DNA of 33,084 bases from Acidobacteriota bacterium (lineage in GTDB: Bacteria > Acidobacteriota > Vicinamibacteria > Vicinamibacterales > JAFNAJ01): the NCBI GenBank assembly GCA_023384575.1, contig JAHDVP010000046.1, positions 1 to 33,084 of the forward strand, given 5' to 3'. This document shows, one piece after another, positions 3,221 through 33,084 of the stretch (position 1 is the stretch's first letter; every line of letters starts with the position of its first letter). A model generated the notes under the pieces. It did no database searches, was not told the origin of the DNA, and was given only the letters and a program-made list of their open reading frames with translations. The position numbers and the translations under genes were made by a program.

Positions 3221-5578
3221 TCAGATGCCCCGGTGCTCGGTACGCGCAATGATCTCGTCCTGCAGCGGACGCGTCAGGTCGCAGAAGTAATCGCTGTAGC
3301 CGGCGACCCTGACGATCAGGTCGCGGTGCTGCTCGGGATGCGCCTGCGCCGCGCGCAGCGTGTCGGCCGTCACGACGTTGAACTGCACGTGATGGCCGTC
3401 GAGCGCGAAATAGCTCCGGATCAGATCGGTGAGGCGGTCGAGCCCCCCGTCGCCCTCGAGCACCTCAGGGGCGAGCTTGAGATTGAGCAACGTCCCGCCG
3501 CATCGCGCCTGGTCGAGGTGCGAGGCCGACCGGAGCACCGCGGTCGGCCCGTGGGTGTCGGTGCCCTGCACCGGTGAGATGCCCTCGGACACCGGTGTCC
3601 GCGCGCGGCGGCCGTCGGGCGTCGCTCCGACGCGCGAGCCGAAGTACACGTGGCAGGTCGTCGACAGGTAGTTGACGTGGTGGTCGCCACCGCGGGTGTT
3701 GGGACGGCCGTCGACAATGGCGTGCACGGCATCGAAGACCCGCCGCAGGATGGCGTCGGCGGCCTCGTCGTCGTTCCCGTAGCGGGGCGTGCGATGCCAC
3801 AGCAGCTGTCGCAGCGGCTCGTTGTCGGCGAAGTCGGAGGCGAGCCCCTGCAGCAGCGCCGCCAGGGTCATCCGTCCGGTGCGGAACACGTGGTACTCGA
3901 TGGCCGAGAGGCTGTCGGTGAGCGTCCCGATGCCGACCGGCATCATGTAGGTCGTGTTGTAGCGCGCGCCGCCGGCGTTGTAGTCGACGCCGCGCGCGAT
4001 GCAGTCGTCGATGAGCAGCGAGAGGAAGGGCGCCGGCATGTACGTGGCGTACAGCCGCTCGATGAGGCGATTGCCTCGAATCTTGATGTCGAGCACGTGG
4101 CGAAGCTGACGCGCGAACGCGTCGAAGACGTCGTCGAAGGACGCAAACGATGCCGGGTCGCCCAGCGAGAGACCGATGCGCCGCCCGCTCGCCGGGTCGA
4201 TGCCGTCGTGGAGCGTCAGCTCGAGCACCTTCGGCAGGTTCACGTAGCCGGTCAGGATGTACGCCTCCCGGCCGAACGCCCCGACCTCGACGCAGCCGCT
4301 CGTGCCGCCCACGCGCGCGTCCTCGATCGATTTCCCCTGGCGCAGCAGCTCCTCGACGACGAGGTCGGCGTTGAAGACCGACGGCTGTCCCCAGCCCTTG
4401 CGGATGATGGCGGCCGCCCGCCGGATGAACGCGTCGGGGCTGCGCTTGCTCACCTGGATGTTCGACGACGGCTGCAGCAGGCGCATCTCGTCGATCACGT
4501 CGAGCAGCAGGAAGCTCACCTCGTTGACGCCGTCGTCACCGTCGGCGGTGAGGCCGCCGACGTTGATGTTGCAGAAGTCGGTGTACGTGCCGCTCTCGGC
4601 CGCCGTCACGCCCACCTTGGGTGGCGCGGGCTGGTTGTTGAACTTGATCCAGAAGCACTGGAGCAGCTCTTCCGCCTGCTCACGCGTCAACCGGCCCTCG
4701 GCGACGTCGCGCCGGTAGAACGGCGCGAGGTGCTGGTCGAGCCGGCCCGGGCAGAACGAGTCCCACGTGTTGAGCTCCGTCACGACACCGAGATGGACGA
4801 ACCAGTACGCCTGCAGGGCCTCGCGGAACGTGCGGGGCGCATACGCAGGCACGTGGTCGCAGACGGCGGCGATCTCGAGCAGCTCTTCGCGCCTCGTCGG
4901 GTCGGTCGTCGACGCGGCGAGCGCCCTTGCCGCCTCGGCGTGACGCCGCGCATAGGCGACGAGCGCCTCGGCGCAGATCCGCATCGCGCGCAGCTCGAAG
5001 GTCTTGTCGACGGCGAGCGGGTCGCATTCGTGGTCGAGCGCGGCGAGCGACCGGTCGATGCGCGCCATCAGCGCCGTGAACCCCTCGTGGTAAATCGTGT
5101 CGCCGAGCACTGTGTGGCCCGGGGCCCGCTGCTCCATGAACTCGGTGAAGACGCCAGCCTCGTAGGCCGCGTGCCACTCCGGCGGCAGCTCGCGCAGCAT
5201 CAGCTCGCGCATCGATTGGCCTTCCCAGAACGGGATGATGCGCTCGGCGTACACGCGCCGCGCCTCCGGTGAAACGTCAAACGAGATCTTCTCGCGCGAG
5301 TGCAGGATGTCGAGGTCGGCGAGCGAGTGGCAGCAGAGCTCGGGGAAGGTCGGCGTCGCCTTCGGCGCCGGCCCGCGCTCGCCGACGATCAGCTCGCCCT
5401 CGCCGATGTGGACGGCCTTGTGCGCAAGCAGATGGCGAAAGACCATCGCGCGCCGCAGCGGCACGGGCGCCAGGCCGGCGAGCCGCATCGCCTCGGTCAC
5501 CAGTTCCGCGCGTTCGGTCGAGATGGAGGGGCGGGCGTCGAGACTCTCTCGACGCAGGCGGGCGACCCGGGGCGTCAT
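3221..5578 (-). CDS. hypD: Glycyl radical enzyme, trans-4-hydroxy-L-proline dehydratase-like
   Basis: A 785-residue pyruvate formate-lyase-superfamily enzyme. The glycyl radical loop is RVAGYSDYF with G760; the thiyl cysteine is C429 in GTSGCVEVGAFG with E431 two residues on. This is the dehydratase/lyase arrangement, not the adjacent Cys-Cys of pyruvate formate-lyase. From memory, the active site of Clostridioides difficile HypD uses F152, H160, D278, S334, D339, F340, C434, E436, Y450, T645 and G765. The same residue types occur here at numbers five lower: F147, H155, D273, S329, D334, F335, C429, E431, Y445, T640, G760. HypD dehydrates trans-4-hydroxy-L-proline to 1-pyrroline-5-carboxylate. 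The related hydroxyproline C-N lyase (HplG-type) or an uncharacterised relative are the alternatives. The ATG is one base after the activase stop, with GGAGG at 5584-5588, so translation is probably coupled. The enzyme needs anoxia. The symbol is not the hydrogenase-maturation hypD. No proC is in the window. Confidence 0.8.
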   Translation of the reverse strand: MTPRVARLRRESLDARPSISTERAELVTEAMRLAGLAPVPLRRAMVFRHLLAHKAVHIGEGELIVGERGPAPKATPTFPELCCHSLADLDILHSREKISFDVSPEARRVYAERIIPFWEGQSMRELMLRELPPEWHAAYEAGVFTEFMEQRAPGHTVLGDTIYHEGFTALMARIDRSLAALDHECDPLAVDKTFELRAMRICAEALVAYARRHAEAARALAASTTDPTRREELLEIAAVCDHVPAYAPRTFREALQAYWFVHLGVVTELNTWDSFCPGRLDQHLAPFYRRDVAEGRLTREQAEELLQCFWIKFNNQPAPPKVGVTAAESGTYTDFCNINVGGLTADGDDGVNEVSFLLLDVIDEMRLLQPSSNIQVSKRSPDAFIRRAAAIIRKGWGQPSVFNADLVVEELLRQGKSIEDARVGGTSGCVEVGAFGREAYILTGYVNLPKVLELTLHDGIDPASGRRIGLSLGDPASFASFDDVFDAFARQLRHVLDIKIRGNRLIERLYATYMPAPFLSLLIDDCIARGVDYNAGGARYNTTYMMPVGIGTLTDSLSAIEYHVFRTGRMTLAALLQGLASDFADNEPLRQLLWHRTPRYGNDDEAADAILRRVFDAVHAIVDGRPNTRGGDHHVNYLSTTCHVYFGSRVGATPDGRRARTPVSEGISPVQGTDTHGPTAVLRSASHLDQARCGGTLLNLKLAPEVLEGDGGLDRLTDLIRSYFALDGHHVQFNVVTADTLRAAQAHPEQHRDLIVRVAGYSDYFCDLTRPLQDEIIARTEHRGI

Positions 5579-5579: not shown

Positions 5580-6479
5580 TCAACCTCCGACGTGAACGGC
5601 GAGGCCGCACCGTTCGAGATGCGACCGCGCGGCGTTCAGGGCTTCCGGCGCCGGGGGCAGGACGTCGGCGAGCGCGTATTCACGGCCAAGACGATTGTAC
5701 TTCGCCACGCCCGCCGTGTGATACGGGAGCAGGTCGACCTCGGACAGCCCCAGCGACGAGACGAACCGCCCCAGCGACGCGAGGTGATCGGCATCGTCGT
5801 TCACCGAGGGCACGAGGGGGACCCGCACGCGGACGGCGCGGTGCAGTCCGACGAGCCTGACCAGGTTCTCGAGAATCGGCCGGTTCGACACGCCGGTGAA
5901 GCGACGGTGCCGCTCGTCGTCGACGATCTTGAGGTCGTAGAGCACGAGGTCGGCGCCGGCCGCCACCTCGACCGCCGACCACGGGGCGAAACCCGACGTC
6001 TCGATGGCGGTGTGCAGGCGGTTCGCGCGGCAGGCCGCGATCGCCTCGGCCAGGAAGGCAGCCTGCATGAGCGGCTCGCCGCCGGAGAACGTCACGCCCC
6101 CGCCAGACCGGCGGAAGAACACCTGGTCCTTCTCGACCTCCTCCATCAGAGCGTCGACCGACATCGCACGGCCCGCGATCTCCCGCGCGCCGGTCGGACA
6201 GGCCTCGACGCACTCGCCGCAGACCTCGCAGGCGTCGCGCAGCAGGTCGACACCAGACGCGGTCTCGACGATGGCGCCGTGCGCGCAGGTGTCGACGCAG
6301 GTGCCGCAGCGGATGCAGCGTGTGGCGACCACGACGGGCTCGGGGTCGAGCGACTGGCTCTCCGGGCTGTGGCACCACCAGCAGCGAAGCGGGCAGCCCT
6401 TGAGGTACACGACCGTCCGGATGCCGGGGCCGTCGTGCACGGCGAAGCGCTCGATGCGGAGGACGAGGCCGGTCGTCAT
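5580..6479 (-). CDS. Glycyl radical enzyme activating enzyme (radical SAM)
   Basis: A 299-residue radical SAM activase that would install the glycyl radical on the enzyme encoded just downstream. The SAM-binding cluster motif is CX3CX2C (C29, C33, C36, in KGCPLRCWWCHSP). An inserted ferredoxin-like domain carries two further 4Fe-4S motifs (C55/C58/C61/C65 and C84/C87/C90/C94), as in activases of dehydratase-type glycyl radical enzymes and unlike the shorter pyruvate formate-lyase activase. TFSGGEP (130-136) is the SAM-contacting GGE motif; the rest resembles the usual partial TIM barrel, ending with LLPYHTAGVAKY. The gene precedes its partner and ends one base before its ATG. The 250-bp gap upstream separates it from the isomerase gene on the same strand; no better promoter is visible there, so readthrough from 8139 is likely. 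Confidence 0.92.
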   Translation of the reverse strand: MTTGLVLRIERFAVHDGPGIRTVVYLKGCPLRCWWCHSPESQSLDPEPVVVATRCIRCGTCVDTCAHGAIVETASGVDLLRDACEVCGECVEACPTGAREIAGRAMSVDALMEEVEKDQVFFRRSGGGVTFSGGEPLMQAAFLAEAIAACRANRLHTAIETSGFAPWSAVEVAAGADLVLYDLKIVDDERHRRFTGVSNRPILENLVRLVGLHRAVRVRVPLVPSVNDDADHLASLGRFVSSLGLSEVDLLPYHTAGVAKYNRLGREYALADVLPPAPEALNAARSHLERCGLAVHVGG

Positions 6480-6614
6480 GCGTGCCGTGTCGCACTCGAG
6501 TCGTTGGCGCGAGGGGCTTCGGCGGGCGATGGCGCGCGCCAGCGGGCACGCTCGCTCCGCGAAGCGGCTCCGCAGGGCGCACCAACCGGCCCTGCCGCGA
6601 CCTGTCGGCGATCG

Positions 6615-6638
6615 GCGTGGGGGCCCCCATCCCCACGC
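6615..6638 (-). other. Intercistronic hairpin between isomerase and activase genes
   Basis: GCGTGGGG (6615-6622) and CCCCACGC (6631-6638) form a perfect 8-bp stem with an 8-base loop; an alternative pairing uses the palindrome GGGGGCCCCC inside it. It lies in the 250-bp spacer of a same-strand gene pair. There is no U-tract. It may be a partial terminator or mRNA-stability element lowering expression of the radical-enzyme genes relative to the isomerase. The rest of the 6480-6729 spacer shows nothing else I can support. Confidence 0.45.
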
Positions 6639-6729
6639 AAGTCAGCCATCCCGTCGGCCTGACGTCGCGGCATCGCCTTTGGCCCTCGTCGCCCCGCTGG
6701 GGCTGAAAATCGCGTGATGCCCGCCTCCA

Positions 6730-8139
<1,410 letters not shown>

Positions 8140-8249: not shown

Positions 8250-8265
8250 TCGTGAACGTTACCGA
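8250..8265. promoter_or_regulatory. Regulon operator, copy 1 (imperfect)
   Basis: TCGTGAACGTTACCGA matches the ideal palindrome TCGTGAACGTTCACGA except that two adjacent bases in the right arm are exchanged. The central AACGTT dyad is typical of LacI-family operators. It sits in the 261-bp gap between the divergent isomerase (-) and aldose epimerase (+) genes, and could serve both. Confidence 0.7.
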
Positions 8266-8400: not shown

Positions 8401-9579
8401 ATGCCCAGGTCGACGCTCGTCCTCATGGCTCTGACCTCCGCCGTCTTCCTCGCCCACGCGGCGTGCAGCTCGTCTGCGCCAGGCGACTCCGCCCCAGCCC
8501 CCGCGGCGCCCGCGGCCAGCGTCACCCGCGCCGCCTTCGGCACCCTGCCCGACGGCACGGCCATCGAGGTCTTCACCCTCACCAACGCCCACGGTCTCGT
8601 CGTCCGCGCCATCACCTATGGCGGCATCATCGTGTCGCTGCACGCGCCAGACCGGGACGGCCGCCTCGACGACATCGTGCTCGGCTACGACACGGTCGAT
8701 GGCTACGTGAAAGACAACTCGCCCTACTTCGGCGCGATCATCGGGCGCTTCGGCAACCGCATTGCCAAGGGCACCTTCTCGCTCGACGGTCAGGCCTACA
8801 CGCTCGCCACCAACAACGGTCCCAACCACCTGCACGGTGGTCTGCAGGGTTTCGACAAGGTCGTGTGGACCGGCGAGAGCGCTTCGACCGACCGCGGACC
8901 GTCGGTGACCTTCTCGCGCACCAGCCCCGACGGCGAGGAAGGGTATCCCGGCGCGCTGACCGCGCGCGTGACCTACACCCTCACCGATCGCAACGAGCTC
9001 ATCGTCGACTACCACGCGACCACCGACAAGCCCACGATCGTCAACCTGACGCAGCACAGCTACTTCAACCTCGCCGGGCAGGGCGCGCGCGACATCCTGG
9101 GCCACGAGCTGCAGGTTGTCGCCGACCGCTACACGCCGGTCGATTCGACGCTCATTCCGACGGGCGAGCTCGCGCCGGTCGAGGCGACGCCGTTCGACTT
9201 CCGTGAGCCGACGGCCATCGGCGCCCGCATCGATGCCGACCACCCGCAGATCAAGGCCGGCCTGGGCTACGACCACAACTTCGTGCTGACCCGGTCGGGA
9301 GACGGGCTCGAGGTCGCGGCGCGGGTGGTCGAGCCCACCACCGGTCGGACGCTGGAGGTGGCCACCACCGAGCCGGGCCTGCAGTTCTACTCGGGCAATT
9401 TCCTCGACGGCAGCATCACCGGGAAGGCGGGCCGCGTCTACCAGCACCGCTACGGCTTCTGCCTCGAGACGCAGCACTTCCCCGACTCACCGAACCAGCC
9501 GGCGTTCCCGTCGGTGGTGTTGCGACCCGGCGAGGAGTACCGCACGCAGACCGTGTTCACCTTCGGCGTGGCGCGCTGA
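8401..9579 (+). CDS. galM: Exported aldose 1-epimerase (galactose mutarotase)
   Basis: A 392-residue aldose 1-epimerase that interconverts alpha and beta anomers of galactose, glucose or arabinose-type sugars. Residues 1-21 are a signal sequence followed by C22 in AHAAC and a Ser/Pro/Ala-rich linker, suggesting a periplasmic lipoprotein, although the lipobox lacks the usual Leu at -3. Catalytic features: H145 in PNHLHGG, base H219 in NLTQHSYFNLAG, GYDHNFVL (289-296) and the acid E356 in FCLETQHFPDSPNQP. ATG 8401 is chosen because the signal peptide starts there and AGGGAG lies just upstream. Its divergent promoter region carries operator copy 1, so it is probably induced with the arabinose genes and prepares released sugars for uptake or isomerisation. 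Confidence 0.93.
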   Translation: MPRSTLVLMALTSAVFLAHAACSSSAPGDSAPAPAAPAASVTRAAFGTLPDGTAIEVFTLTNAHGLVVRAITYGGIIVSLHAPDRDGRLDDIVLGYDTVDGYVKDNSPYFGAIIGRFGNRIAKGTFSLDGQAYTLATNNGPNHLHGGLQGFDKVVWTGESASTDRGPSVTFSRTSPDGEEGYPGALTARVTYTLTDRNELIVDYHATTDKPTIVNLTQHSYFNLAGQGARDILGHELQVVADRYTPVDSTLIPTGELAPVEATPFDFREPTAIGARIDADHPQIKAGLGYDHNFVLTRSGDGLEVAARVVEPTTGRTLEVATTEPGLQFYSGNFLDGSITGKAGRVYQHRYGFCLETQHFPDSPNQPAFPSVVLRPGEEYRTQTVFTFGVAR

Positions 9580-10569: not shown

Positions 10570-11781
10570 CTACGGACGTAGCAGCCGCGCCCCGCCGCCG
10601 GGGCGTGTGGTGAAGAGACGCCCTGCGCGGCCCGTGCGCTCGCGGTAGCCAGCCGCAACGCGGGCGACGAAGTCCTTGGCTCCAGCCTGCTCGACGATCG
10701 CCACGGCGCACCCACCAAAGCCGCCGCCCGTCATCCGCGCGCCCACGCACGCGCAGTGCGCTTGCGCGATCTCCACCATCGCATCGAGCTCGGGGCACGA
10801 GACCTCGTAGAGGTCGCGCAGGCTCGCGTGCGACTCGCGCATCAGACGCGCCACGGCCGCGCGGTCGTCTTCCCGCAGCGCGGTGGCCAGCGCCGGCGGG
10901 CGCGCGATCTCCTGAACGACGTGACGGGCGCGCTGCCAGTCGATCTCGTCCACGCGATCACGGAACGCCCCGAGCATCCCGATGTCGACGTCGCGAAGCG
11001 CCCGCACGTCGGGCTCTTCCATGCGGATCGCCTCGACGACGCGCTCGCAGGCTGCGCGTCGATTGTTGTACGCGCTCGACGTGAGCGATCGCGTCACGGC
11101 GGTGTCCATCACCACGACGAGGAGGTCGCCGGGGATCGGCACGGGCTCGAGCGCGAGCGAACGGCAGTCGACGAGCAGCGCCGTGCCTTCGCGCGATGCG
11201 GAGGCGGCGAGCTGGTCCATGATGCCGCAGGCCATGCCGACGAACTCGTTCTCGGCGCGCTGGCAGAGCCGTGCGGCCCACACCGGGTCCCATGGCACGC
11301 CGGCCACCTCGCAGAGCGCGCGCGCCACCGCGACCTCGAGGGCGGCAGACGAGGAGAGCCCGGCACCCATCGGCAGGTCGCTAGCAATCGCGAGATCGGC
11401 CCCACCGACCGTGCGGCCGTCCTGCTCGAGCGCCCACGCCACGGCGCCGACATAGCCTGGCCACCCCTCAAGCGTACGTGGCTCGAGGGCATCGAGCGCG
11501 ATCGTCCCCGTCTCATCGAACGCCACGGCGTCCACGTGCAGCACGCGTTCGCCTCGTGAGCCGAACGCCACGGCGACGCCCAACTCGAGCGCCATCGGCA
11601 GCACGAACCCGTCGTTGTAGTCGGTGTGCTCGCCGATCAGATTGACGCGGCCCGGCGCGAAGGCGACGCCGTGCGCCGCGCGGCCCGTCCGGCGCCTCAG
11701 TCGATCCGCCGCCCGCGCCGCGACCGTGGTGGGTCGATCGGCGCCGGTCGTCGATCCGCTGAATGGCTCATTCGTGATCAC
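10570..11781 (-). CDS. galK: Galactokinase
   Basis: A 403-residue cytoplasmic GHMP kinase that phosphorylates galactose to galactose 1-phosphate (Leloir pathway). The galactokinase signature [15 protein letters not shown] starts at residue 44 with R45; the ATP-binding loop [11 protein letters not shown] is at 137-147; GIMDQ gives catalytic D189; [13 protein letters not shown] near the C-terminus is GHMP motif 3. The start is uncertain: no ATG is available in the right place, so I use the GTG at 11781, which overlaps the end of galT by 14 bases and follows a GGAG. The longer in-frame extension is shadow sequence of galT. This is the last gene of araB-araD-symporter-galT-galK, followed by a palindromic terminator candidate. 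One operon for arabinose and galactose suggests a substrate carrying both sugars. Confidence 0.95.
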
Positions 11782-12802
11782 GGTAGTGCCGCTCCGACAT
11801 CTCGCGCAGCCGCGCGGCCGCGACCTCGGCCGTGAGGTCGCGCTGAGGCTCCGCGGTGAGCTCGTAGCCCACGAGGAACTTCCGCACCGTCGCCGACCGC
11901 AGGAGCGGCGGCAGGTACGTCGCGTGCAACCGCAAGTACGGATGCCACGCGCCATCGGTGGGCGCGCCGTGCCATCCCATCGAGTACGGAAAGGGCGTGC
12001 GGAACAGGTTGTCGTACCGCGCGCCGAGGCGCTTGACGATGTCGGCGAGCGCCTGGCGCTCGTCGTCGGCCAACGCCACGAGGTCGGCGACGCGCCGCCG
12101 GGGCACCAGCATCGTCTCGAAGGGCCACACGGCCCAGAACGGCACGAGCGCCACCCAGTGTTCGTTCGAACAGACGACGCGCTCGCCGCCCGCCAGCTCG
12201 CGCGCAAGGTAGTCGCCGACGAGATCGGTACCGTGCGCCGCGAAGTACCGCCGCTGCGCATCGAGCTTCCGGGCGGGAATGCCGGGCACGTGCTCCGTGG
12301 CCCAGATCTGCCCGTGCGGATGCGGGTTGCTGCAGCCCATCATCGCGCCGCGGTTCTCGAAGACCTGCACGTAGCCAATCGTGCCGCTCTCGCCGAGCGT
12401 CGCGACCTCGTCGGCCCAGCAGTCGACCACCCGCCCGATGTCGGCCACGTCCATGCGCGAGAGCGTGAGGTCGTGCCGCGGACTGAAGCACACCACGCGG
12501 CACACGCCCCGCTCGGGCACGGCCCTGAGCAGGCCTTCGTCCATCGCCTCGGACGCCGTCTCCGAGACGATGGCGGGGAAGTCGTTGTCGAAGACGAAGG
12601 TGTGCGCGTAGGCGGGATTGCGCGCGCCGTTGGCGCGCACGTTGCCCGGACACAGGTAACACGCCGGGTCGTACGACACCGACGCCTCGCCGGCCTCGTC
12701 GTCGACCTGCCCCTGCCAGGGGCGCCCGAGCCGCTGCGGCGACACGAGCACCCACTCATCGAGCAGCGGGTTGTACCGACGATGCGGGCCATCGAGGCGC
12801 AT
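11768..12802 (-). CDS. galT: Galactose-1-phosphate uridylyltransferase
   Basis: A 344-residue HIT-superfamily enzyme that exchanges galactose 1-phosphate with UDP-glucose to give UDP-galactose and glucose 1-phosphate. Seen: the N-terminal [16 protein letters not shown] typical of GalT; zinc ligands C48 and C51 in CYLCPGN; the active-site motif [11 protein letters not shown], in which H163 is the uridylylated histidine by family comparison; and [17 protein letters not shown] in the C-terminal half. Length is normal. It begins 18 bases after the symporter stop and overlaps the galK start, so it is translationally linked on both sides. No galE is visible here, so the UDP-sugar epimerase must be elsewhere. 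Confidence 0.97.
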
Positions 12803-12820: not shown

Positions 12821-14584
12821 TCAGCCGCGGAAGTACATGTAGGCGATGACGATCAGCACCATCACGAGCGCCGAGCTCAGCACGTCGTTCTTGTCCCAGC
12901 TCGCGCGCGTCTCGCGTCTGTGCTCCTCGGTGACCGTCGCGTAGGTCAGACCCGCCAACTGCTCCTTCGGCGGCTGGGTGGTCGCATAGCTCACGCCGAT
13001 CAGCACTGCGGCCGACACGACGAAGATGAGCAGGCTGTAGTACTGGAAGTAGATGTTGTTCACGATCCAGAAAAAAGAGCCGACCTCGTAGCCGCCCTCG
13101 AATCCGGCCAGCTTCAGCGTCACCGGCGTGTCGACGGCGAGGCGGAACACGCCGAGCAGGAAGCCGACGACGAGCGCCCAGAGGCAGCCGGCGCCGTTCA
13201 GCCGCTTCATGAAGACGCCGAGGAAGAACACCGCGAAGATGGGCGGCGCGAGATACGACTGCACGCCCTGCAGGTACTCGTAGAGGCCGCGCGCGCCCTG
13301 GATCACGGGAATCCAGAAGAGCCCGATCGCCACCATCACCGTCGTCGCCACGCGGCCGATCCACACGAGCTGGTGCTGCGTGGCCGTCGGGTGCAGCTTG
13401 CGGTAGAAGTCCATCGTGAAGAGCGTCGACGAGGCGTTGAACACCCCCGCGAGCGAGCTCATGAGCGCGGCGAGCAGGCCCGCCACGACGACGCCGCGCA
13501 GACCGATCGGCATCACCGCCTGCACGAGCAGCGGGAAGGCCGCCTGCGCCGACGCGGGGACGACGTGGCCCTGCGCGTCGACGAGCGGGCTGAGCGCGTC
13601 GAACTGTCCCGTGCGCGCGAGCGCGAGCGCAATCATGCCCGGGATGATGAAGATGAAGACGGGCAGCAGCTTGAGCGTCGCCGCGAAGATCGCACCCCGC
13701 CGCGCCTCGCGCTCGCTCGGCGCGCCGAGGGCGCGCTGCACGATGTACTGATCGGTGCACCAGTACCACAACCCGATGATCGGCGCGCAGAAGAGCATGC
13801 CGAGCCACGGGTAGTTGGTGTTGAAGTACCACGCCATGCGCCCGCTCTCCTTGACGGGTGCCCACGTCCCTTCGACCCCCTCGGGGATGAGCGGCTTCCA
13901 GAGGTTGAACATGTCGGGGTCGAGCGCGGCGCGGAACTCGCTCCAGCCACCGAGCTTCGCGAGGCCGAACGCCGTCAGCATCAGCGACCCGATGATGAGC
14001 ACCAGCGTCTGCACGGCCTCGGTGTAGGCCACCGCCCGCAGGCCGCCGAGCACCGTGTAGAGCCCCGTCAGCAGCACCACGAGCACCGAGCCGACCCAGA
14101 AGGCGTTGAACGTGATCGAGCCGAGCGTGACGCTCAGCTCGGGCAGGAGCGTGGCGAAGACGATGCCCCCGGCGAAGATGCCGACGGCGATTTTCGTGAG
14201 CACGTAGGCGACGAGCGAGATGATCGACAGCACCCACCGCGAGGCCGGCGAGAACCGCCGCTCGAGGAACTCGGGCATCGTGAAGACCTTCGACCTGAGG
14301 TAGAAGGGCACGAGCACCCAGCCGAGCACGAGCAGGCACCAGGCGTGCAGCTCGTAGTGCGCCATGGCGACGCCGTCGGTCGCACCCGACCCGGCGAGCC
14401 CCACGAGGTGCTCCGAGCCGATGTTCGAGGCGAAGATCGACGCGCCGACCACCCACCAGCCCAGGTTGCGCCCCGCCAGGAAGTAGTCGTCGGCGGTGTC
14501 CTTGTTCTTCTTGACGACCCACCAGGTGAGCGCGCCGAGGACCGCGAAGTAGCCGGCAATCACGAGCCAGTCGAGTGTCGCCAT
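12821..14584 (-). CDS. Sodium:solute symporter (SSS/SGLT type), sugar uptake
   Basis: A 587-residue inner-membrane protein with about 14 hydrophobic segments, of the SGLT branch of the SSS family. Seen: TWWVVKKNKDTADDYFLAGR near residues 20-40, then GASIFASNIGSEHLVGLAG, the family's sodium-site region, and LAALMSSLAGVFNASSTLFTMDFYR, the conserved helix with serines that bind sodium in vSGLT. C-terminal helices include YLAPPIFAVFFLGVF. ATG 14584 is chosen because GGAGG lies about 11 bases upstream and the homologous core begins there; the ATG 48 bases further upstream has no ribosome site. Its position between araD and galT suggests it imports L-arabinose and/or galactose; the sequence alone cannot say which. 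Confidence 0.93.
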   Translation of the reverse strand: MATLDWLVIAGYFAVLGALTWWVVKKNKDTADDYFLAGRNLGWWVVGASIFASNIGSEHLVGLAGSGATDGVAMAHYELHAWCLLVLGWVLVPFYLRSKVFTMPEFLERRFSPASRWVLSIISLVAYVLTKIAVGIFAGGIVFATLLPELSVTLGSITFNAFWVGSVLVVLLTGLYTVLGGLRAVAYTEAVQTLVLIIGSLMLTAFGLAKLGGWSEFRAALDPDMFNLWKPLIPEGVEGTWAPVKESGRMAWYFNTNYPWLGMLFCAPIIGLWYWCTDQYIVQRALGAPSEREARRGAIFAATLKLLPVFIFIIPGMIALALARTGQFDALSPLVDAQGHVVPASAQAAFPLLVQAVMPIGLRGVVVAGLLAALMSSLAGVFNASSTLFTMDFYRKLHPTATQHQLVWIGRVATTVMVAIGLFWIPVIQGARGLYEYLQGVQSYLAPPIFAVFFLGVFMKRLNGAGCLWALVVGFLLGVFRLAVDTPVTLKLAGFEGGYEVGSFFWIVNNIYFQYYSLLIFVVSAAVLIGVSYATTQPPKEQLAGLTYATVTEEHRRETRASWDKNDVLSSALVMVLIVIAYMYFRG

Positions 14585-14657
14585 GGTCTCGATGTCCTCC
14601 GGGGCGTGGCTGCCAGACCCGACGCGCGCCATCCCCGGGCCGCGCGCGCGGGCGTCG

Positions 14658-15365
14658 TCACCGGCCCGACTTCTGGCCGTAGTACGCGTGCGACCCGTGC
14701 TTCCTCAGGTAGTGCCTGTCGGTCAGGTACGGCGCGGGCCGCGGCGCCTCGGGCGCGATCGCCCGCGACATGACGTCCATGCGCGCGAGGAACTCGAGCA
14801 CCTGCGCGAGCTCCACCGCCGCCCTCGGCGTCGGGCCCCACGCAAACGGCCCGTGGTTGGCCACGAGCACCGCCGGCACCTCGTCCGGCGAGACGCCCGC
14901 CGTGGCGAACGTCTCCACAATCACGAGGCCCGTGTTCCGCTCGTAGTCCGACTCGACCTCGTCGGCCCGCATCGACCGGGTCACGGGCACGTCGCCGCGG
15001 AAATGGTCGGCGTGTGTCGTGCCCATGCAACGCACCGGCAGCCGCGCCTGCGCCAACGTCGTCGCGAACTCGGAATGCGTGTGGACGATGCCGCCGCACG
15101 CGAACGCGCGATACAACTCGAGGTGCGTGGGCGTGTCCGACGAGGGGCGCAGCGACGAGTCGACGACCTCGCCGGTCTCGAGCGAGACGGGCACCATGTG
15201 CTCCGGCGTCAGCGCCTCGTAGGGCACGCCGCTCGGCTTGATGGCCAGGAGGCCCGCCGCCCGGTCGACACCCGACACGTTGCCGAACGTGCCGAGCACG
15301 AGGCCGGTGGCCGAGAGCGCGATGTTGGCGCGGTAGACCTCTTCACGCAGTGCCTGAGCGATCAT
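14658..15365 (-). CDS. araD: L-ribulose-5-phosphate 4-epimerase
   Basis: A 235-residue class II aldolase/epimerase that converts L-ribulose 5-phosphate to D-xylulose 5-phosphate, the last dedicated step of L-arabinose catabolism. Residues match the positions I remember for E. coli AraD: zinc ligands H95, H97 and H171, catalytic D120 in TTHAD and Y229 in HAYYG. Also present are the phosphate-binding GNVSG (29-33) and KPSGVPY (43-49), and SSDTPTH (75-81) with D77. The KHGSHAYYGQ ending separates AraD from fuculose aldolase. It follows araB after 46 bases that contain a strong hairpin, and precedes the symporter gene. Confidence 0.96.
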   Translation of the reverse strand: MIAQALREEVYRANIALSATGLVLGTFGNVSGVDRAAGLLAIKPSGVPYEALTPEHMVPVSLETGEVVDSSLRPSSDTPTHLELYRAFACGGIVHTHSEFATTLAQARLPVRCMGTTHADHFRGDVPVTRSMRADEVESDYERNTGLVIVETFATAGVSPDEVPAVLVANHGPFAWGPTPRAAVELAQVLEFLARMDVMSRAIAPEAPRPAPYLTDRHYLRKHGSHAYYGQKSGR

Positions 15366-15411: not shown

Positions 15412-17130
15412 TCACGATTGTGGGGTTGCCTCGGCCACCGGCACGGCGGCGACGACCCGCTCGCGAATGGCGAGCAGCCGTTTCATCAGCGTCGGCAGGT
15501 CGGCCGTGGCGCCGGGCACGCCGCCAAAGGTGTCGTGCAGCTCGCGATAGATCCCGTACACATCGGCGTAGACGGCCTGCGCGGCTGGCGCCGGATCGTA
15601 ACGCCGGGCTTCCGGCGCCGCCATGCGCGCCTGTGCGGCGTCGAAGGTGTCGTAGCCGCCAGCCGCCGCGCCAGCGGCCACCGCCGCCGCAATCGCCGAC
15701 CCGAGCGCCGGCGTCTGCGGCGACCCCGACACCAGCATCGGCGAGCCGAGCACGTCGGCGTAGATCTGCATGAAGAGCGCGTTCTTCTCCGCGATGCCGC
15801 CGCAGCAGACGACCCGATCGATGGGCACGCCGCAGCTCGTCAGCCGTTCGATGATCGCGCGCGCGCCGAACGCCGTGGCCTCGATGAGCGCGCGATACAC
15901 CTCGGCGCGCGTCGTGTGGAGCGTCTGCCCCACGACGAGGCCCGTCAGCCGGGGATCGACGAGGATGGTCCGGTTGCCGTTGTTCCAGTCGAGGGCGACG
16001 AGCCCCGACTGCCCTGGCGCGAGTGCCGCCGCCTCCGCCGACAGCGCCGCGTGCAGCGCCTCGTCGCCCTGGCAGATCTCCTCGACCCACCACTTCAGGA
16101 TGTCGCCGACTGCCGACTGGCCGGCCTCGATGCCGTCGTAGCCGGGCAGGATCGACCCGCGCACGATACCGCAGATCCCGGGAATCTCCGTCTGCTGGTC
16201 GTCCGCCGGCGCGATGGCACAGTCGCACGTCGAGGTACCGATGATCTTGACGAGCGTGCCCGTCCTCACCCCGGCGCCAATCGCCCCGTAGTGCGCGTCG
16301 AATGCGCCCATCGCGATCGGCAGGCCCGGCCGGAGCCCGAACGTGGCCGCCCAGGGCTCACAGAGGTGGCCGGCAGGTCGATCGGCCGCGTCGGCCCTTT
16401 CGTAGAGCCGATCGCGCAGGTCGGCCAGCTTCGGGTCGAGCCGGGCCAGGAACTCTTTGGGTGGAAGACCGCCCCAGGACTCCGAGTAGAGGGCCTTGTG
16501 ACCGGCCGGGCAGATACCTCGCGGGATGGCCCGCGCGTCGTCGATCCCGGCCAACAGGGCGGGGATGAAGTCGGCCAGCTCGACCCAACTCGCTGCCGCG
16601 TCGAACACCTCGGGCGCGATTTTCAGGCATCGCCAGATCTTCGACCAGAACCACTCCGACGAGTAGGTGCCGCCGATGGGCGCCAGCAGGTACGGCGCGT
16701 GCTCGCGCGCGGTGGCCGTGATGGCGGCCGCCTCAGCCGCCGCCGTGTGGTCCTTCCACAGCCAGGCCTGGGCCGCGAGGTTCGAGGCCCATGTCGGATC
16801 GAGCGCGAGCGGCCGGGCGCGCGCGTCGACCGGCATCGGGGTCGACCCGGTCGTATCGACGCCAATGCCGATCACGGCCGGCCGCGAGAAGTCGGCATCG
16901 GCATCCGCGGCGTCGAGCGCGCGGGTCACCGAGGCGCGTAGTCCTTCCACGTAGTCGCCGGGATGCTGCCTGGCGAGATGCGGATCGCGCGGATCGATCA
17001 GGATCCCCTGTTCGCCCGACGGGTAGTCGAACACGTGCGTGGCGATGGTTCGCCCGGTGTCGCAGTCGACGACGACAGCTCGAACGGAGTTGGTGCCGTA
17101 GTCGACGCCGATGGTGAACGCCCGCTTCAT
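15412..17130 (-). CDS. araB: Ribulokinase
   Basis: A 572-residue FGGY-family sugar kinase that phosphorylates L-ribulose to L-ribulose 5-phosphate. The length and motifs are those of AraB: N-terminal phosphate-binding VDYGTNSVRAVVVD (9-22) with D10, GIGVDTTGSTPMPVD, TYSSEWFWSKIWRCLK, the catalytic-loop GAFDAHYGAIGAG, and IGTSTCDCAIA followed by GIEAGQSAVGDILKWW. The ATG at 17130 has GAGGAG at 17138-17143 and begins the conserved first strand; the longer in-frame ORF adds only Pro/Arg-rich sequence. It is the first gene of the araB-araD-symporter-galT-galK operon and is divergent from the LacI-type regulator, with a perfect regulon palindrome between them. Confidence 0.97.
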   Translation of the reverse strand: MKRAFTIGVDYGTNSVRAVVVDCDTGRTIATHVFDYPSGEQGILIDPRDPHLARQHPGDYVEGLRASVTRALDAADADADFSRPAVIGIGVDTTGSTPMPVDARARPLALDPTWASNLAAQAWLWKDHTAAAEAAAITATAREHAPYLLAPIGGTYSSEWFWSKIWRCLKIAPEVFDAAASWVELADFIPALLAGIDDARAIPRGICPAGHKALYSESWGGLPPKEFLARLDPKLADLRDRLYERADAADRPAGHLCEPWAATFGLRPGLPIAMGAFDAHYGAIGAGVRTGTLVKIIGTSTCDCAIAPADDQQTEIPGICGIVRGSILPGYDGIEAGQSAVGDILKWWVEEICQGDEALHAALSAEAAALAPGQSGLVALDWNNGNRTILVDPRLTGLVVGQTLHTTRAEVYRALIEATAFGARAIIERLTSCGVPIDRVVCCGGIAEKNALFMQIYADVLGSPMLVSGSPQTPALGSAIAAAVAAGAAAGGYDTFDAAQARMAAPEARRYDPAPAAQAVYADVYGIYRELHDTFGGVPGATADLPTLMKRLLAIRERVVAAVPVAEATPQS

Positions 17131-17217: not shown

Positions 17218-17231
17218 CGTGAACGTTCACG
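17218..17231. promoter_or_regulatory. Regulon operator, copy 2 (perfect palindrome)
   Basis: CGTGAACGTTCACG is a perfect 14-bp palindrome in the divergent araB/regulator gap, 88 bases from the araB ATG and 84 from the regulator ATG. It is placed to control the araB operon and autoregulate the LacI-type gene. Confidence 0.8.
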
Positions 17232-17315: not shown

Positions 17316-18479
17316 ATGAGCCCGACCTCCCCCCGCCGCTCCGTGGCCTTCCGGCGTCCCGTCGGCATCAAGGACATCGCCCGCGCGCTCGGCGTCTCGA
17401 CCGGCACGGTCGACCGTGCGCTGCACGCCAAGCCCGGCATCAACCCGATGACCAGGACGCGCGTGCTCCGCATGGCCGAGTCGCTCGGCTACCGGCCAAA
17501 TCTCGCCGCGCGGCACCTCAAGTCCCGCCGGGTGGTGCGCATCTCGGTCCACCTGCCCCGCGAGATTGCCCTCTTCTGGGACTCATTGCGCGAGGGCATC
17601 CGCCAGGCCGCCGCGCCGTTTGCGCCGACGCTCGAGGTCGACTTCGAGAGCTACCCGCGTCTTGGCGAGGGCGACGTGCCACTCTTCGAGCGCGCGCTCG
17701 GCGAGGGGACCAACGGCCTGATCGTGGCCCCAGGCGACCCCGTCGCGCTTCGCCCCTGGATCAGGGTGGCCGCCCAGCGCAGCATTCCTGTCGTCTGCGT
17801 GGTCACCGACGCGCCCGATACCCAGCGGCTGACGTCCATCTCGGCCGACCCGTACACCGTGGGCGCCGTGGCCGGCGAGTTCCTGTCGCGCTGCCTGCCG
17901 CAGGGTGGTCCGGTGGCGTTCTTCACCGGCTGGCTGTCGACGCAGGACCACGCCGACAAACTCCGGGGCTTCGAGGCCAGCACGCAGGCGCTCGGCGGCC
18001 ATCTCCGTCTCGCGGGGGTCGTCGAGGCCCACGACGACGAGCGGGAGTGCCGCCAGCACGCGCTCCATCTCCTGAGAGCGCAGCCCGACTTGAAGGGCGT
18101 CTACGTGAGCACCGTCAACTCACTGCCCGTGCTGCGCGCGGCGCAGGAACTCGGCCGCCTCGACGACCTCACGATCATCACGACGGACCTCTTCCCCGAG
18201 CTCGTCGACTGGATCCGGTCGGGCCGGGTGGCCGCCACCGTCTACCAGCGGCCAATCAGCCAGGGGCGGCTGGCCTTGCGTGCGCTCTACGAGTTCATCG
18301 TCCACGGCACGTGCCCGCCGTCGCGCATCAACGTCGTGCCGCACCTCGTGATGCGCAGCAACCTCGATTTCTTCCTCGAGCGGCTCCCGGTCGAGGGCGA
18401 CGTCCTGGCGGCGCCACTCGACGAACCGGCCTCGAGCACGGCGCGCGCGACGGTGCTCACGCTCGGCGCGAACGGTTGA
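17316..18479 (+). CDS. LacI-family transcriptional regulator
   Basis: A 387-residue regulator. Residues 17-37 form the LacI-type helix-turn-helix (GIKDIARALGVSTGTVDRAL), followed by GYRPNLAARHLKS (58-70), the hinge region that inserts at the centre of operators. The remainder is a periplasmic-binding-protein-like effector domain (ISVHLPREIALFWDSLREGI, GTNGLIVAPGD, GVYVSTVNSLPV, ITTDLFPELVDWI), so a sugar ligand is expected. The recognition helix STGTVDRAL differs from the usual VS..TVSR form, which fits a distinctive operator. No good ribosome site precedes the ATG at 17316; a GTG at 17343 is an alternative that would trim nine residues outside the helix-turn-helix. By position and operator type it is the best candidate for binding CGTGAACGTTCACG. 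The likely inducer is L-arabinose or an arabinose-derived intermediate. Confidence 0.93.
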   Translation: MSPTSPRRSVAFRRPVGIKDIARALGVSTGTVDRALHAKPGINPMTRTRVLRMAESLGYRPNLAARHLKSRRVVRISVHLPREIALFWDSLREGIRQAAAPFAPTLEVDFESYPRLGEGDVPLFERALGEGTNGLIVAPGDPVALRPWIRVAAQRSIPVVCVVTDAPDTQRLTSISADPYTVGAVAGEFLSRCLPQGGPVAFFTGWLSTQDHADKLRGFEASTQALGGHLRLAGVVEAHDDERECRQHALHLLRAQPDLKGVYVSTVNSLPVLRAAQELGRLDDLTIITTDLFPELVDWIRSGRVAATVYQRPISQGRLALRALYEFIVHGTCPPSRINVVPHLVMRSNLDFFLERLPVEGDVLAAPLDEPASSTARATVLTLGANG

Positions 18480-21461: not shown

Positions 21462-22445
21462 ATGATTGGGCTCGACGATTCGCTCACGCTCGACGAGCTC
21501 GAATCGGCCGCACGTGTGGTCTACGCCGTGATGCCGCCGACCCCGCAGTACCGCTGGCCGCTGCTCTGCGAGCGGCTCGGCACCGAGGTCTGGGTCAAGC
21601 ACGAGAACCACACGCCGGTCGGCGCATTCAAGGTCCGTGGGGGCCTCGTCTACTTCGACGCCCTCGTCCGGTCGTCGGCTCGGCCCGCGGGGGTGATCAG
21701 CGCGACGCGCGGCAATCACGGCCAGTCGGTCGCCTTCGCCGCCGCCCTTCACGACCTCCCGGCCACGATCGTCGTGCCGCACGGCAACAGCCGCGAGAAG
21801 AACGCGGCGATGCGGGCGCTCGGGGCCACGCTCATCGAGCACGGCGACGACTTCCAGGCCGCCAGGGAGTTCGCGGAGGCGCTGGCCAAGGAGCGTTCGC
21901 TCCACGCCGTGCCCTCGTTCCATCCGCGGCTCGTCGCCGGCGTCGCCACCTACAGCCTCGAGCTGTTCCGTGCGGTGGACCACCTCGACGTTGTCTATGT
22001 GCCGATCGGGATGGGGTCGGGCATCTGCGGCATGCTGGCCGCGCGCGATGCGCTGGGCCTCGCCACCGAGATTGTCGGCGTCGTGTCGGCGCACGCCACC
22101 GCCTATGCCGAATCGTTCGCCATCGGGCATACGGTCGAGAGGCCGGCCACCACGGCCCTGGCCGATGGCATGGCCTGCCGCGTGCCGGAGCCGGGCGCCC
22201 TCGCGCGGATCCGGCGGGGCGTCGAGCGGATCGTGCAGGTCGACGACGACGAGGTGGCGCGGGCGATGCGGCTGATCTTCGCCTGCACGCACAACACGGC
22301 CGAGGGCGCGGGAGCCGCCGGTGTCGCTGCCGCACTGCAGGAGGCTCGCCGGCTGACGGGTCGACGGGTGGCCGTCGTCCTGTCTGGCGGCAACGTCGAC
22401 AGCGGTGTCTTCGCCGGCGTGCTGGCCGGAGGGTCGGGGCGCTGA
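21462..22445 (+). CDS. Threonine/serine dehydratase-family PLP enzyme
   Basis: A 327-residue fold-type II PLP enzyme related to catabolic threonine ammonia-lyase, which forms 2-oxobutanoate and ammonia from threonine (or pyruvate from serine). Seen: PLP lysine K57 in TPVGAFKVRGG, substrate loop SATRGNHGQSVAFAA (80-94), phosphate-binding glycine loop VPIGMGSGICG and C-terminal VLSGGNVDSGVF. No ACT regulatory domain follows, so it is the short catabolic form. The ATG at 21462 has no clear Shine-Dalgarno. It is probably cotranscribed with the methyltransferase starting two bases after its stop. It is not obviously part of the sugar regulon, although amino-acid release from glycoprotein would be compatible. 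Confidence 0.9.
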   Translation: MIGLDDSLTLDELESAARVVYAVMPPTPQYRWPLLCERLGTEVWVKHENHTPVGAFKVRGGLVYFDALVRSSARPAGVISATRGNHGQSVAFAAALHDLPATIVVPHGNSREKNAAMRALGATLIEHGDDFQAAREFAEALAKERSLHAVPSFHPRLVAGVATYSLELFRAVDHLDVVYVPIGMGSGICGMLAARDALGLATEIVGVVSAHATAYAESFAIGHTVERPATTALADGMACRVPEPGALARIRRGVERIVQVDDDEVARAMRLIFACTHNTAEGAGAAGVAAALQEARRLTGRRVAVVLSGGNVDSGVFAGVLAGGSGR

Positions 22446-23405: not shown

Positions 23406-24962
23406 TCACTCGAGGCGCAGCTCGAGGATCGTCAGCGAGTGTTTCGGGAACGTCCACGAGAACGAGCCGCCGTCGACGTCGACGCGCGCGCTGCGGATCG
23501 TGGGTCGCACCTTCAGGTCGTCGCCGAAGCCGTGTGTGGCTTTCAGATCGTCGTGGTACAGGTGCCAGACGCCGATGTCGGGGCGCGGCCGGCCCTGCTG
23601 ACTCTCGATGCGCGCCGTGATGCCGCGGTCGCGGCTGCGATTGAGGACGTTGACGAACACGCGTCGCGTCTTCGGGTCGAAGGTGGACGAGACGTCCAGG
23701 TACTGCAGCGGCGGCCGCTTGTCGAGGCTGAAGGTGGGCCCCGACACCCAGACGTCGAGCGAGGTGAACCCGCGCTGCCTCCCGTACTCGACGAGCGGGA
23801 AGTAGGTCGGCTGGAGGAAGAGGCCCTCGCGGTTCGTCATGATGGGCGCAATCACGTTCACCATCTGCGCGAGGTTGGCCATCTTGACCACGTCGGCGTG
23901 ACGGAAGAAGACGTTGAAGAACATGCCCATCGCCAGGGCATCCTCGAAGTTGTAGATCTCCTCGAGCCCCTGCGCCGTGAACGCGCGGTACCACACGTTC
24001 CATTCGTCGTACGCGATGAAGATGGGACGCGGCTCGGGCTGGCCCGACTGCGCCTCGCGAATCTGCGCGGCGGTCACGCGGATGTAGTGTTCGATGGTGC
24101 GCGACCACCCGCCGAGGAACCGCTCGAGATCGTCGTCGCGGTTGTTGATGTAGGTGTGCAGCGCAATGTAGTCGACGTGATTCCGCAGGGCACGAAGCAC
24201 CGTGCGGTTCCAGTGAATCCAGTCGCCCCCGTAGTGGCTCGGGCCGTTGGCGACCAGCTTGATGTCGCGGTCGACGGCGCGCATGGCCTTCGCGGCCTCG
24301 AGCGCCATCTTCGCGTAGTCTTCGGCGTTCTTGTGCCCGAGCTGCCACGGCCCGTCGATCTCGTTGCCGAGCGCCCAGTACTTCACCTTCCACGGGTCGT
24401 CGCGGCCGTTCTTCCGGCGCTCGTTCGCCCAGAAGGTCGAGCGCGCCTCGTTCGTGTACTCGACCCACTGGCGGGCGTCCTCGATCGTCCCGAGCCCGAG
24501 GTTGATGCAGATGTACGGCTCGATGCCGAGAGCCTCGGCGTAGTCGAGGAACTCGTGCGTGCCGAAGCGGTTCGACTCGAGGGCGCCCCAGGCGCCGTCG
24601 ATCCGCACGGGCCGCTGGTCCTTCGGGCCGATGCCGTCTTTCCAGTTGTAGCCCGACACGAAGTTGCCACCGGGCCAACGCAGGATCGACACGTCGAGCT
24701 CCCTGACGGCGGCCATCACGTCCTTCCGATAGCCCAGCTCGTCGGACAGCGGACTGCCCTCCTCGTAGACGCCGCCGTAGATCATCCGCCCGAGGTGCTC
24801 GGCGAAGTTGCCGAAGACGTGGGGGTGCACCTCGCCGATCGCGCGGTCGACGTCGATCTTGATGCGCGCCTCCGGACCCTGACCCTGGGCGCCGGGTGAG
24901 GCGACGATCAGGGGGAAGACGAGGAACGGTACGGCGAGCAGCGGGCGAGGGACTCGAAGCAT
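23406..24962 (-). CDS. Secreted GH51 alpha-L-arabinofuranosidase
   Basis: A 518-residue glycosidase that removes alpha-L-arabinofuranosyl groups from arabinan, arabinoxylan or arabinogalactan chains by a retaining mechanism. Seen: [20 protein letters not shown] (51-70) and [20 protein letters not shown] (about 94-113) at the start of the (beta/alpha)8 barrel, acid/base E201 in [11 protein letters not shown], nucleophile E320 in [10 protein letters not shown], and a C-terminal beta-sandwich. Residues 1-28 are a signal peptide, so it acts outside the cytoplasm, unlike many intracellular GH51 enzymes. ATG 24962 is preferred over the one 33 bases upstream because GGAGG precedes it and the signal peptide begins there. 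It is divergent from the S9 peptidase, with operator copy 3 between. Confidence 0.95.
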
Positions 24963-25015
24963 CGACGCCTCCGGGCACCAGGGGGCCGTGTTCATGCTAC
25001 CGGTTTTTCCTGGTG

Positions 25016-25031
25016 GCGTGAACGTTTACGA
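25016..25031. promoter_or_regulatory. Regulon operator, copy 3 (one arm mismatch)
   Basis: GCGTGAACGTTTACGA keeps the CGTGAACGTT core with one C-to-T change in the right arm. It lies in the 102-base gap between the divergent GH51 and S9 peptidase genes, so one site may control both. Confidence 0.72.
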
Positions 25032-25064
25032 TGCGCTATTTTGCCGTCGAACAGGAGGATGCCC

Positions 25065-27368
<2,304 letters not shown>

Positions 27369-28919: not shown

Positions 28920-28934
28920 CGTGAACGTTCACGG
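28919..28934. promoter_or_regulatory. Regulon operator, copy 4 (perfect palindrome)
   Basis: TCGTGAACGTTCACGG contains the perfect 14-bp palindrome CGTGAACGTTCACG (28920-28933), identical to copy 2. It overlaps the end of the -10 box and the predicted start of transcription of the downstream glycosidase-like gene. Confidence 0.82.
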
Positions 28935-31937: not shown

Positions 31938-33084
31938 CTACTTCACTTTCCACTCCTGGATCCCGGCGGACACGTCAGCCTGCAGCGTCACCTCGAGCCG
32001 TAGTCCGCTCGTGGTCACGGGCGTGAACGCGACGCGGTTGTACCGGTCGAGTGCGACGCCGAACGTGTCCGACGTCGCGACCGGCTTCCACTCGTCGCCG
32101 TCCTTGTAGAGCAGGCGCCAGGAAGCCGGCGCCCGTGTCTGGCCGCGCCCGGTGTCGTCGAACCAGTAGACCTCCGACTGCGACACCGTGGCCGGAGCGT
32201 CGAAGGCGTACTCGACCCACTCGGTCGTGCCTCGTCTCGGCCAGAACGAGAAGAACGAGGTCGGGTCGTTCGACGCGGCGGGCTCTTCCGCGTCGTTGAT
32301 GGCGAAGGGATTGCGCCCGGCCGACGTCGTGACGGTGCTCCGTGTCGCCACGGTCGGCAGCGGCGTCGGCTTCGCCCCGGCCTCCGACGTCGGCAACCAG
32401 ACGATCATCTGACCGCGTCCCCGGTTGGCCCAGGCATAGTAAGGAATCGCGACGAACTCCTGTTCACGCGTCGTCACGCGGCCGTCGGCGCCGTAGGCGA
32501 GCGCGATGGCGCGGCTCGTCACGACCTGAACGCCGCCCAGAAGACCGGCGCGGAACTCCGACACGAGACGGGCGGTGTCGGGCAGCACCAGGTTCCTCAC
32601 CCGCCCGCCGGGGTTGTCGGGCCACTCGGCGGCGAACACGAGCGGGCCGCGCTGCAGCGCCACGCGCCCGCGATTCGCCTCGACCTTCTCGTGTGCCATC
32701 ACGCGTCGCACGGGCATGGGCAGCGACAGCTCGATCACGTCGCCGGCCTCCCACGTGCGTTGCAGGGTCACGTAGCCCCTGGTGAGCGCCACGGGCACGG
32801 TCTCCCCGTTGACCTTCAACCCGACCGCGCCGCTCGAGGGCTCGGCAAAGCGATACAGGTCGCTCGGCACCGGTTCGTTGCGGGCCCAGCCGGGAATCCG
32901 TACGCGGATGGTGAACGCTCCGGTCTCCGCCGGCGTCACGGTGACCCTGACGTCGCCCTCGAACGGATAACGGGTCTGCTGCGCGAGCTTCACGCGGCGC
33001 CCGCTGCCGAGCGTGACGTCGGCCGATCCCTGCGCGAAGAGGTTCACGTAGAGCGTGTCGCGCTCGGTCGCGTAGACGTAGCCT
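31938..33084 (-). CDS. GH127/DUF1680-type beta-L-arabinofuranosidase-like protein, 5' end outside window
   Basis: About 381 C-terminal residues are visible; the reading frame continues past the window edge (GYVYATERDTLYVNLFAQGS precedes any plausible start). DUF1680/GH127-GH146 hallmarks are seen: YVNLFAQGSADVTL, TRYPFEGDVRVTV, FTIRVRIPGWARNEP, a GYVTLQRTWEAGDVIELSLPMPVRR segment and VALQRGPLVFAAEWPDN. The last 130 residues (WVEYAFDAPATVSQSEVYWF, WRLLYKDGDEWKPV) resemble a discoidin/F5-8-type carbohydrate-binding domain. GH127 enzymes release beta-L-arabinofuranose, the linkage found on hydroxyproline in extensins; the catalytic residues lie in the missing N-terminal part, so activity cannot be confirmed here. 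Convergent with the preceding gene. Confidence 0.88.
   Translation of the reverse strand, partial: GYVYATERDTLYVNLFAQGSADVTLGSGRRVKLAQQTRYPFEGDVRVTVTPAETGAFTIRVRIPGWARNEPVPSDLYRFAEPSSGAVGLKVNGETVPVALTRGYVTLQRTWEAGDVIELSLPMPVRRVMAHEKVEANRGRVALQRGPLVFAAEWPDNPGGRVRNLVLPDTARLVSEFRAGLLGGVQVVTSRAIALAYGADGRVTTREQEFVAIPYYAWANRGRGQMIVWLPTSEAGAKPTPLPTVATRSTVTTSAGRNPFAINDAEEPAASNDPTSFFSFWPRRGTTEWVEYAFDAPATVSQSEVYWFDDTGRGQTRAPASWRLLYKDGDEWKPVATSDTFGVALDRYNRVAFTPVTTSGLRLEVTLQADVSAGIQEWKVK

Follow-up and report, generated by a model that had tools for sequence, protein, structure and literature searches.

Gene content of the arabinose/galactose locus

The stretch of DNA analysed in this work (hereafter the window) comprises 33,084 bp of a 38,691-bp contig, in a genome of 5.89 Mb distributed over 112 contigs. 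The host is taken to belong to the Acidobacteriota in the GTDB sense, since the genomes sampled from its phylum include some with HypDs nearly identical to those of named Aminicenantes and Acidobacteriota. The window carries a gene predicted to encode the oxygen-sensitive glycyl radical enzyme HypD together with its activase, at one side of a set of genes for arabinose and galactose utilization. The genes, the active site and the operator-like sites are read directly from the sequence, as is the statistical linkage described below, and the features on which the argument depends are as follows.

3221..5578, minus strand: hypD, predicted trans-4-hydroxy-L-proline dehydratase, glycyl radical enzyme (C429, E431, G760), 785 aa, ATG start
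5580..6479, minus strand: hypD-AE, radical-SAM glycyl-radical activase, 1 nt upstream of hypD
6480..6729: intergenic gap of 250 nt between the fucose-isomerase-like gene and hypD-AE
6730..8139, minus strand: L-fucose-isomerase-family protein (PF02952, 92.5 bits), proposed from its context to be the L-arabinose isomerase
8251..8264: operator-like palindrome CGTGAACGTTACCG (2 mismatches), divergent isomerase/galM promoter region
8401..9579, plus strand: galM, aldose 1-epimerase (PRK11055, 341 bits, above the cut-off of 240)
10570..11781, minus strand: galK, galactokinase (TIGR00131, above cut-off)
11768..12802, minus strand: galT, galactose-1-phosphate uridylyltransferase
12821..14632, minus strand: SSF symporter of the sugar type (PF00474; nearest solved relatives SGLT1/SGLT2, 7sl8, E 7e-112)
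14658..15365, minus strand: araD, L-ribulose-5-phosphate 4-epimerase (PRK08193, above cut-off)
15412..17130, minus strand: araB, ribulokinase (PRK04123, 624.6 bits vs a cut-off of 428)
17218..17231: operator palindrome CGTGAACGTTCACG, between araB and the LacI-type regulator
17343..18479, plus strand: LacI-family regulator (PF00356, PF13407), proposed arabinose repressor of the locus
23406..24995, minus strand: GH51 alpha-L-arabinofuranosidase (PF06964, 122.8 bits)
25017..25030: operator-like site CGTGAACGTTTACG (1 mismatch), divergent promoter region of the GH51 and DPP-IV-like genes
25059..27368, plus strand: DPP-IV-like S9 prolyl peptidase (PF00930, PF00326; nearest solved relatives the bacterial DPP IV structures 2ecf, 5yp1 and 2d5l)
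28920..28933: exact copy of the operator CGTGAACGTTCACG, before the gene at 29133-31931
29133..31931, plus strand: unannotated 932-aa protein with a predicted glycoside-hydrolase-like fold (GH36/GH97/GH101-type, low confidence)
31938..33084 and on to about contig position 34627, minus strand: predicted GH127 beta-L-arabinofuranosidase, C-terminal part in the window (PF20736/PF20737)
upstream of GH127, beyond the window: TonB-receptor-like gene, recognised by eye
contig positions 38323 and 38552: operator-like copies before the TonB-receptor-like and GH127 genes

Some of these assignments are firmer than others. In addition to its match above cut-off, GalM scored 356.9 bits with TIGR02636, below the cut-off of 397.65, and the GH51 enzyme scored 466 bits with NF051901, whose cut-off is 625. 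The contig reads N just past the edge of the window, and the GH127 protein was searched as two pieces; the part beyond the window gave a PF07944 match of 380 bits (contig 33239-34405), and the nearest solved structure was 6ex6, followed by other GH127 enzymes including 3wre/3wkw. The isomerase-like gene has homologues of 28-31% identity that adjoin araD/araB in Aminicenantes-type genomes. The SSF gene was considered as a dedicated hydroxyproline/proline transporter, a role that was dropped because the solved structures closest to it are those of sugar cotransporters. No GH121 gene was found among the contig ORFs scanned, and no ABC importer for beta-arabinobiose was seen among the contig genes examined, which hold instead the SGLT-type SSF symporter and the TonB-receptor-like gene. 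Two further genes lie between the regulator and the GH51 gene: a large DUF5695 protein with a secretion-like start (18492-21242), and a threonine/serine dehydratase (21462-22445; PRK06110 above the curated cut-off) that could use the serine of extensin, and before which no operator copy occurs.

The 932-aa protein encoded at 29133-31931 had no sequence match in Pfam, NCBIfam or the PDB. Its structural model is of low confidence (pTM 0.47), and the best Foldseek match was the GH36 enzyme AgaA (E 3e-16), with VIA-align Z scores of about 14-17 and an rmsd of 4.8-8.7 over roughly 450-530 residues; galactosaminidase, GH97 and phosphorylase-domain entries score like GH36 for this model. Strong homologues are restricted to eight of 297 genomes of the phylum, the host included, and seven of the eight bear HypD. 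We regard this protein as a candidate for a new glycoside hydrolase family. Homologues were also seen to adjoin GH127 genes in several genomes (G072 C25, G216 C4, G272 C1).

Identity of the glycyl radical enzyme and its activase

The preliminary description of this DNA had listed eleven active-site positions at which the protein carries the same residue as HypD of Clostridium difficile, at a constant offset of five, and had predicted hydroxyproline dehydration from them. All eleven residues were found (F147, H155, D273, S329, D334, F335, C429, E431, Y445, T640 and G760), each numbered five less than its C. difficile counterpart, and in the alignment all eleven columns were identical to C. difficile HypD with no exception, at an overall identity of 54%. 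Ten of the positions, H160, D278, S334, D339, F340, C434, E436, Y450, T645 and G765 in C. difficile numbering, have been mutated and assayed in that enzyme; the eleventh, F152, is the only one absent from the text of that report (PMC7077986). The core of the superfamily is in place, namely the thiyl residue C429 and the radical residue G760 within the domains PF02901 (PFL-like) and PF01228 (Gly_radical), and the match goes beyond the generic Cys, Glu and Gly, as had been argued. In the alignment read by eye, glycerol dehydratase keeps only H155, C429, E431 and G760 of the eleven and changes the others (F147>G, D273>H, S329>F, D334>M, F335>Y, Y445>F, T640>S), and two glycyl radical enzyme paralogues taken from HypD-bearing genomes likewise keep four, F335, C429, E431 and G760, their eleven columns reading R-E-A-A-M-F-C-E-D-V-G. 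Judged from these comparisons, the residues specific to HypD number six or seven of the eleven.

Independent comparisons agree with this assignment. The curated HypD equivalog model NF043068 gave a score of 1224.7 bits, with its cut-off at 1100, and every other model remained under its own cut-off. The nearest solved structure by sequence was HypD itself (6vxc, 1027 bits), with glycerol dehydratase second at 492 bits, and 6vxc was also the top fold match of an AlphaFold2 model of the protein (mean pLDDT 75; TM 0.91). In a tree of 123 rows whose outgroup consisted of only two glycyl radical enzyme paralogues, C. difficile HypD and the window protein shared one clade of 50 rows (SH-aLRT 98). A search for placement in a distinct cluster with substitutions at the hydroxyproline-contacting residues was negative. 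A score above the NF043068 cut-off is not by itself proof of HypD, because two proteins in which Thr replaces the catalytic Glu also pass it; unlike these, the window protein has the Glu (E431). Taken together, sequence data could hardly support the assignment as HypD more firmly. Hydroxyproline dehydration is the activity that best fits the enzyme, and we are highly confident that it dehydrates hydroxyproline whatever the source of the substrate.

The two Thr-bearing proteins just mentioned (L066 and L070, from genomes G006 and G020) belong to a set of five HypD-like sequences, together with L147, L148 and L153, that read GCVT in place of GCVE, keep the other ten sites and branch deep in the tree. 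Since the E436Q substitution abolishes the activity of C. difficile HypD, this set may represent a different enzyme that acts on a hydroxyproline-like substrate and is mis-called by the model.

The activase encoded immediately upstream scored 334.5 bits with TIGR02494, above the cut-off of 174; its best equivalog is the HypD activase NF043069, with 339.8 bits under a cut-off of 425. By analogy with C. difficile HypD, whose chemistry we assume here because the residues are identical, the activase would install the radical on G760, and C429 would then abstract a hydrogen from C5 of trans-4-hydroxy-L-proline, with loss of water to give (S)-1-pyrroline-5-carboxylate (P5C).

With regard to the genomic setting, the preliminary description had considered a non-Clostridial host of high GC content unusual for HypD, a view that does not hold, since 65 of 396 sampled genomes of the phylum exceed the NF043068 cut-off and relatives were found across Chloroflexi, Planctomycetes, Armatimonadota, Gemmatimonadota, Clostridia and other groups. 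It had correctly pointed out that no proC adjoins hypD; moreover, no gene of the genome passes the proC cut-off, the best proC-like gene reaching 94 bits vs 197. A P5C dehydrogenase that passes TIGR01236 is encoded elsewhere in the genome, as are two genes of the proline dehydrogenase family. Given a P5C dehydrogenase and a proC-like gene that is only sub-threshold, P5C is probably converted to glutamate, although its reduction to proline is also possible. A proline-racemase-family gene (3533-4570 of locus L196, contig 9 of the same genome), whose best match is trans-3-hydroxyproline dehydratase, below cut-off, lies at a distance of some 10 kb from the gene for P5C dehydrogenase; a second hydroxyproline route is possible.

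Operator-like sites and recurrence of hypD near arabinose genes

The palindrome CGTGAACGTTCACG was derived by comparing the promoter gaps of the locus; the generic LacI consensus, also tried as an operator query, gave only a chance-level match. At up to one mismatch the motif occurs five times in the 5.89-Mb genome and all five copies lie on the 38.7-kb contig, whereas about one copy would be expected genome-wide by a uniform-base estimate. The chance of the 2-mismatch copy in the isomerase/galM gap is about 0.0008. Joint induction of the sugar and peptidase genes through the LacI-type repressor is probable. The prolyl peptidase and the arabinofuranosidase share an operator-like site, for which a locus devoted only to polysaccharide would not obviously have a need. 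No operator copy lies directly before hypD-AE/hypD, and the gap at 6480-6729 was found to contain no operator-, promoter- or T-tailed terminator-like site; read-through transcription of both genes from the isomerase gene is possible. In the Aminicenantes-type loci described below, no repeated palindrome comparable to CGTGAACGTTCACG was evident.

The sugar setting of hypD had been remarked upon as odd, rightly so, and it proved to be the informative part, both as an arabinose/galactose locus and through its recurrent linkage. HypD, araB and GH127 were located in the 396 genomes of the phylum, and genes within 30 kb on one contig were counted as linked. HypD and araB were linked in 13 of the 39 genomes having both, against 0.7 expected from genome sizes. 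The 13 genomes fall into three families, with ten in f48, two in f65 and the host genome alone in f1, and with one representative per family the probability of at least three being linked is about 0.001. In terms of presence, araB and HypD also co-occur above expectation (39/66 vs 59/330, raw counts that include shared ancestry). The f48 and f65 loci hold in addition GH127 (up to two genes, mostly 53-61% identical to that of the window), GH51, araD, the isomerase-like gene and galM, and in several Aminicenantes-type genomes galM adjoins hypD. The HypDs of f48 and f65 group with named Aminicenantes in a clade of their own (nine rows, SH-aLRT 99), away from the window protein, and the association of HypD with araB has therefore probably arisen at least twice. 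Since most of the linked genomes belong to the one family f48, independent linkage events are few, about two to three. A recent block transfer of HypD, araB and GH127 from Aminicenantes was considered and is unlikely, as identity between the isomerase-like proteins reaches only 28-31% and the HypDs lie in different clades. In the genome G203, hypD, the activase, a DPP-IV-like gene 58% identical to that of the window and GH127 all lie within about 10 kb, the DPP-IV-like gene adjoining hypD and GH127 being 3 kb away.

Beyond these genomes the linkage was not seen. An independent search recovered 19 further genomes that carry HypD as well as GH127. Other phyla account for most of them and Acidobacteriota for at least four, and in none were the two genes close; likewise, none of 80 HypD loci across phyla had araB or GH127 at good identity within the flanks covered. 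Among the neighbourhoods inspected, one locus (L179, G216:C4, 2056-11438) has an apparent hydrogenase cluster between hypD and the arabinose genes that is absent in G072, as judged from protein starts. At another (L166, G256:C5, 794-4350), hypD has as neighbours a gene of the ornithine cyclodeaminase/mu-crystallin family and one for an S46 peptidase, both plausible for proline/hydroxyproline metabolism.

Proposed pathway and relation to known systems

In canonical extensin repeats, serine bears alpha-galactose and hydroxyproline bears one to five arabinofuranoses in beta or alpha linkage (PMC5371791). We propose, with a probability of roughly 0.6, that HypD finishes a pathway, encoded by this locus, for the hydroxyproline-rich glycoproteins of plants and chiefly for extensin. 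The source of the substrate, co-transcription and every enzymatic activity are what we infer here. In such a pathway the GH51 and GH127 enzymes would remove alpha- and beta-L-arabinofuranose from hydroxyproline, the GH36-like protein encoded at 29133-31931 may take galactose from serine, and the DPP-IV-like enzyme with other peptidases would release hydroxyproline. Arabinose would then enter through the isomerase, AraB and AraD, and galactose through GalM, GalK and GalT, and the hydroxyproline would be converted by HypD to pyrroline-5-carboxylate and by the P5C dehydrogenase encoded elsewhere to glutamate. The gene set suggests plant cell-wall glycoproteins rather than animal collagen as the substrate; at the same time, the arabinose, galactose and GH127 genes would also fit pectin or arabinogalactan, without any protein.

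Another reading is a real HypD in an incidental place, with a patchily inherited hydroxyproline-fermentation pair at the end of a polysaccharide locus, using hydroxyproline from any source including collagen. HypD is indeed patchy in the order, whose two other HypDs (L035, L036) are without such adjoining sugar genes, and the 19 unlinked genomes and the missing operator before hypD-AE point the same way; such an origin is conceivable and we take it seriously, yet it does not readily explain an excess of HypD-araB linkage in HypDs from separate clades, nor the presence of galM beside hypD in several Aminicenantes-type genomes too. It would, by contrast, be very surprising if the enzyme were a dehydratase of the HypD clade acting on some other substrate of the locus, such as a sugar-derived polyol, another hydroxyproline isomer or an N-methyl derivative. 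The sugar setting would suit such a substrate, N-methyl-cis-4-hydroxyproline is used by other glycyl radical enzymes (8id1, 8iof), and the HypD-like proteins with Thr for E436 illustrate that the substrate does not follow from a match to the family model by itself; against this, all eleven pocket and catalytic residues equal those of HypD, and the N-methyl-hydroxyproline and polyol enzymes are just 29-33% identical in the structural match. The extensin-type pathway accounts better than coincidence for the sugar setting, yet the independent lineages behind it number two or three. A wider version, that HypD was recruited more than once into regulated extensin-type loci, that the protein encoded at 29133-31931 is a new glycosidase family for the same substrate, and that anaerobic hydroxyproline dehydration recycles plant cell-wall protein in soils and sediments, is offered only tentatively.

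Discussion of HypD has centred on the gut, where collagen and diet supply its substrate. If the proposed pathway is true, the plant cell wall would be the hydroxyproline source for some environmental HypDs. In the open-access literature we found no paper combining hydroxyproline, glycyl radical and extensin, nor one combining HypD, hydroxyproline and extensin, and the word 'plant' is absent from the main text of the C. difficile study (PMC7077986). The enzyme itself adds one more member to a known family, and it is the wiring of HypD to an arabinoside and prolyl-peptide locus that is a variant not found in the open-access literature searched.

Among characterized systems, the closest for the enzyme is C. 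difficile HypD (6vxc/6vxe; PMC7077986), with which it shares 54% identity, the eleven active-site residues and the predicted fold, the activase being adjacent here; unlike that gene, hypD of the window has no neighbouring proC and is surrounded by a sugar locus. HplG (7vua) and the N-methyl-hydroxyproline dehydratases (8id1, 8iof) are likewise glycyl radical enzymes acting on hydroxyproline-like substrates, and are 27-30% identical to the window protein. For the sugar side, the HypAA/HypBA1/HypBA2 cluster of Bifidobacterium longum, which is described in the parts of the source available as using an alpha-arabinofuranosidase, GH121 and GH127 on hydroxyproline-rich glycoproteins (PMC7263609), has in common an alpha-L-arabinofuranosidase, GH127 and sugar uptake aimed at hydroxyproline-linked arabinosides. 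The window differs from it in having GH51 and not GH43, and SSF/TonB-type uptake genes, with neither GH121 nor an ABC importer seen among the contig genes examined, and it adds HypD for the hydroxyproline itself, an enzyme that the same parts of that source do not mention for the B. longum cluster. Finally, the reconstruction of Latescibacteria also describes an uncultured anaerobe proposed to degrade extensin with the help of GH127, with no mention of a hydroxyproline dehydratase in the portions of that account available (PMC4454575); relative to it, the window locus would add a hydroxyproline-consuming step and a local set of operators.
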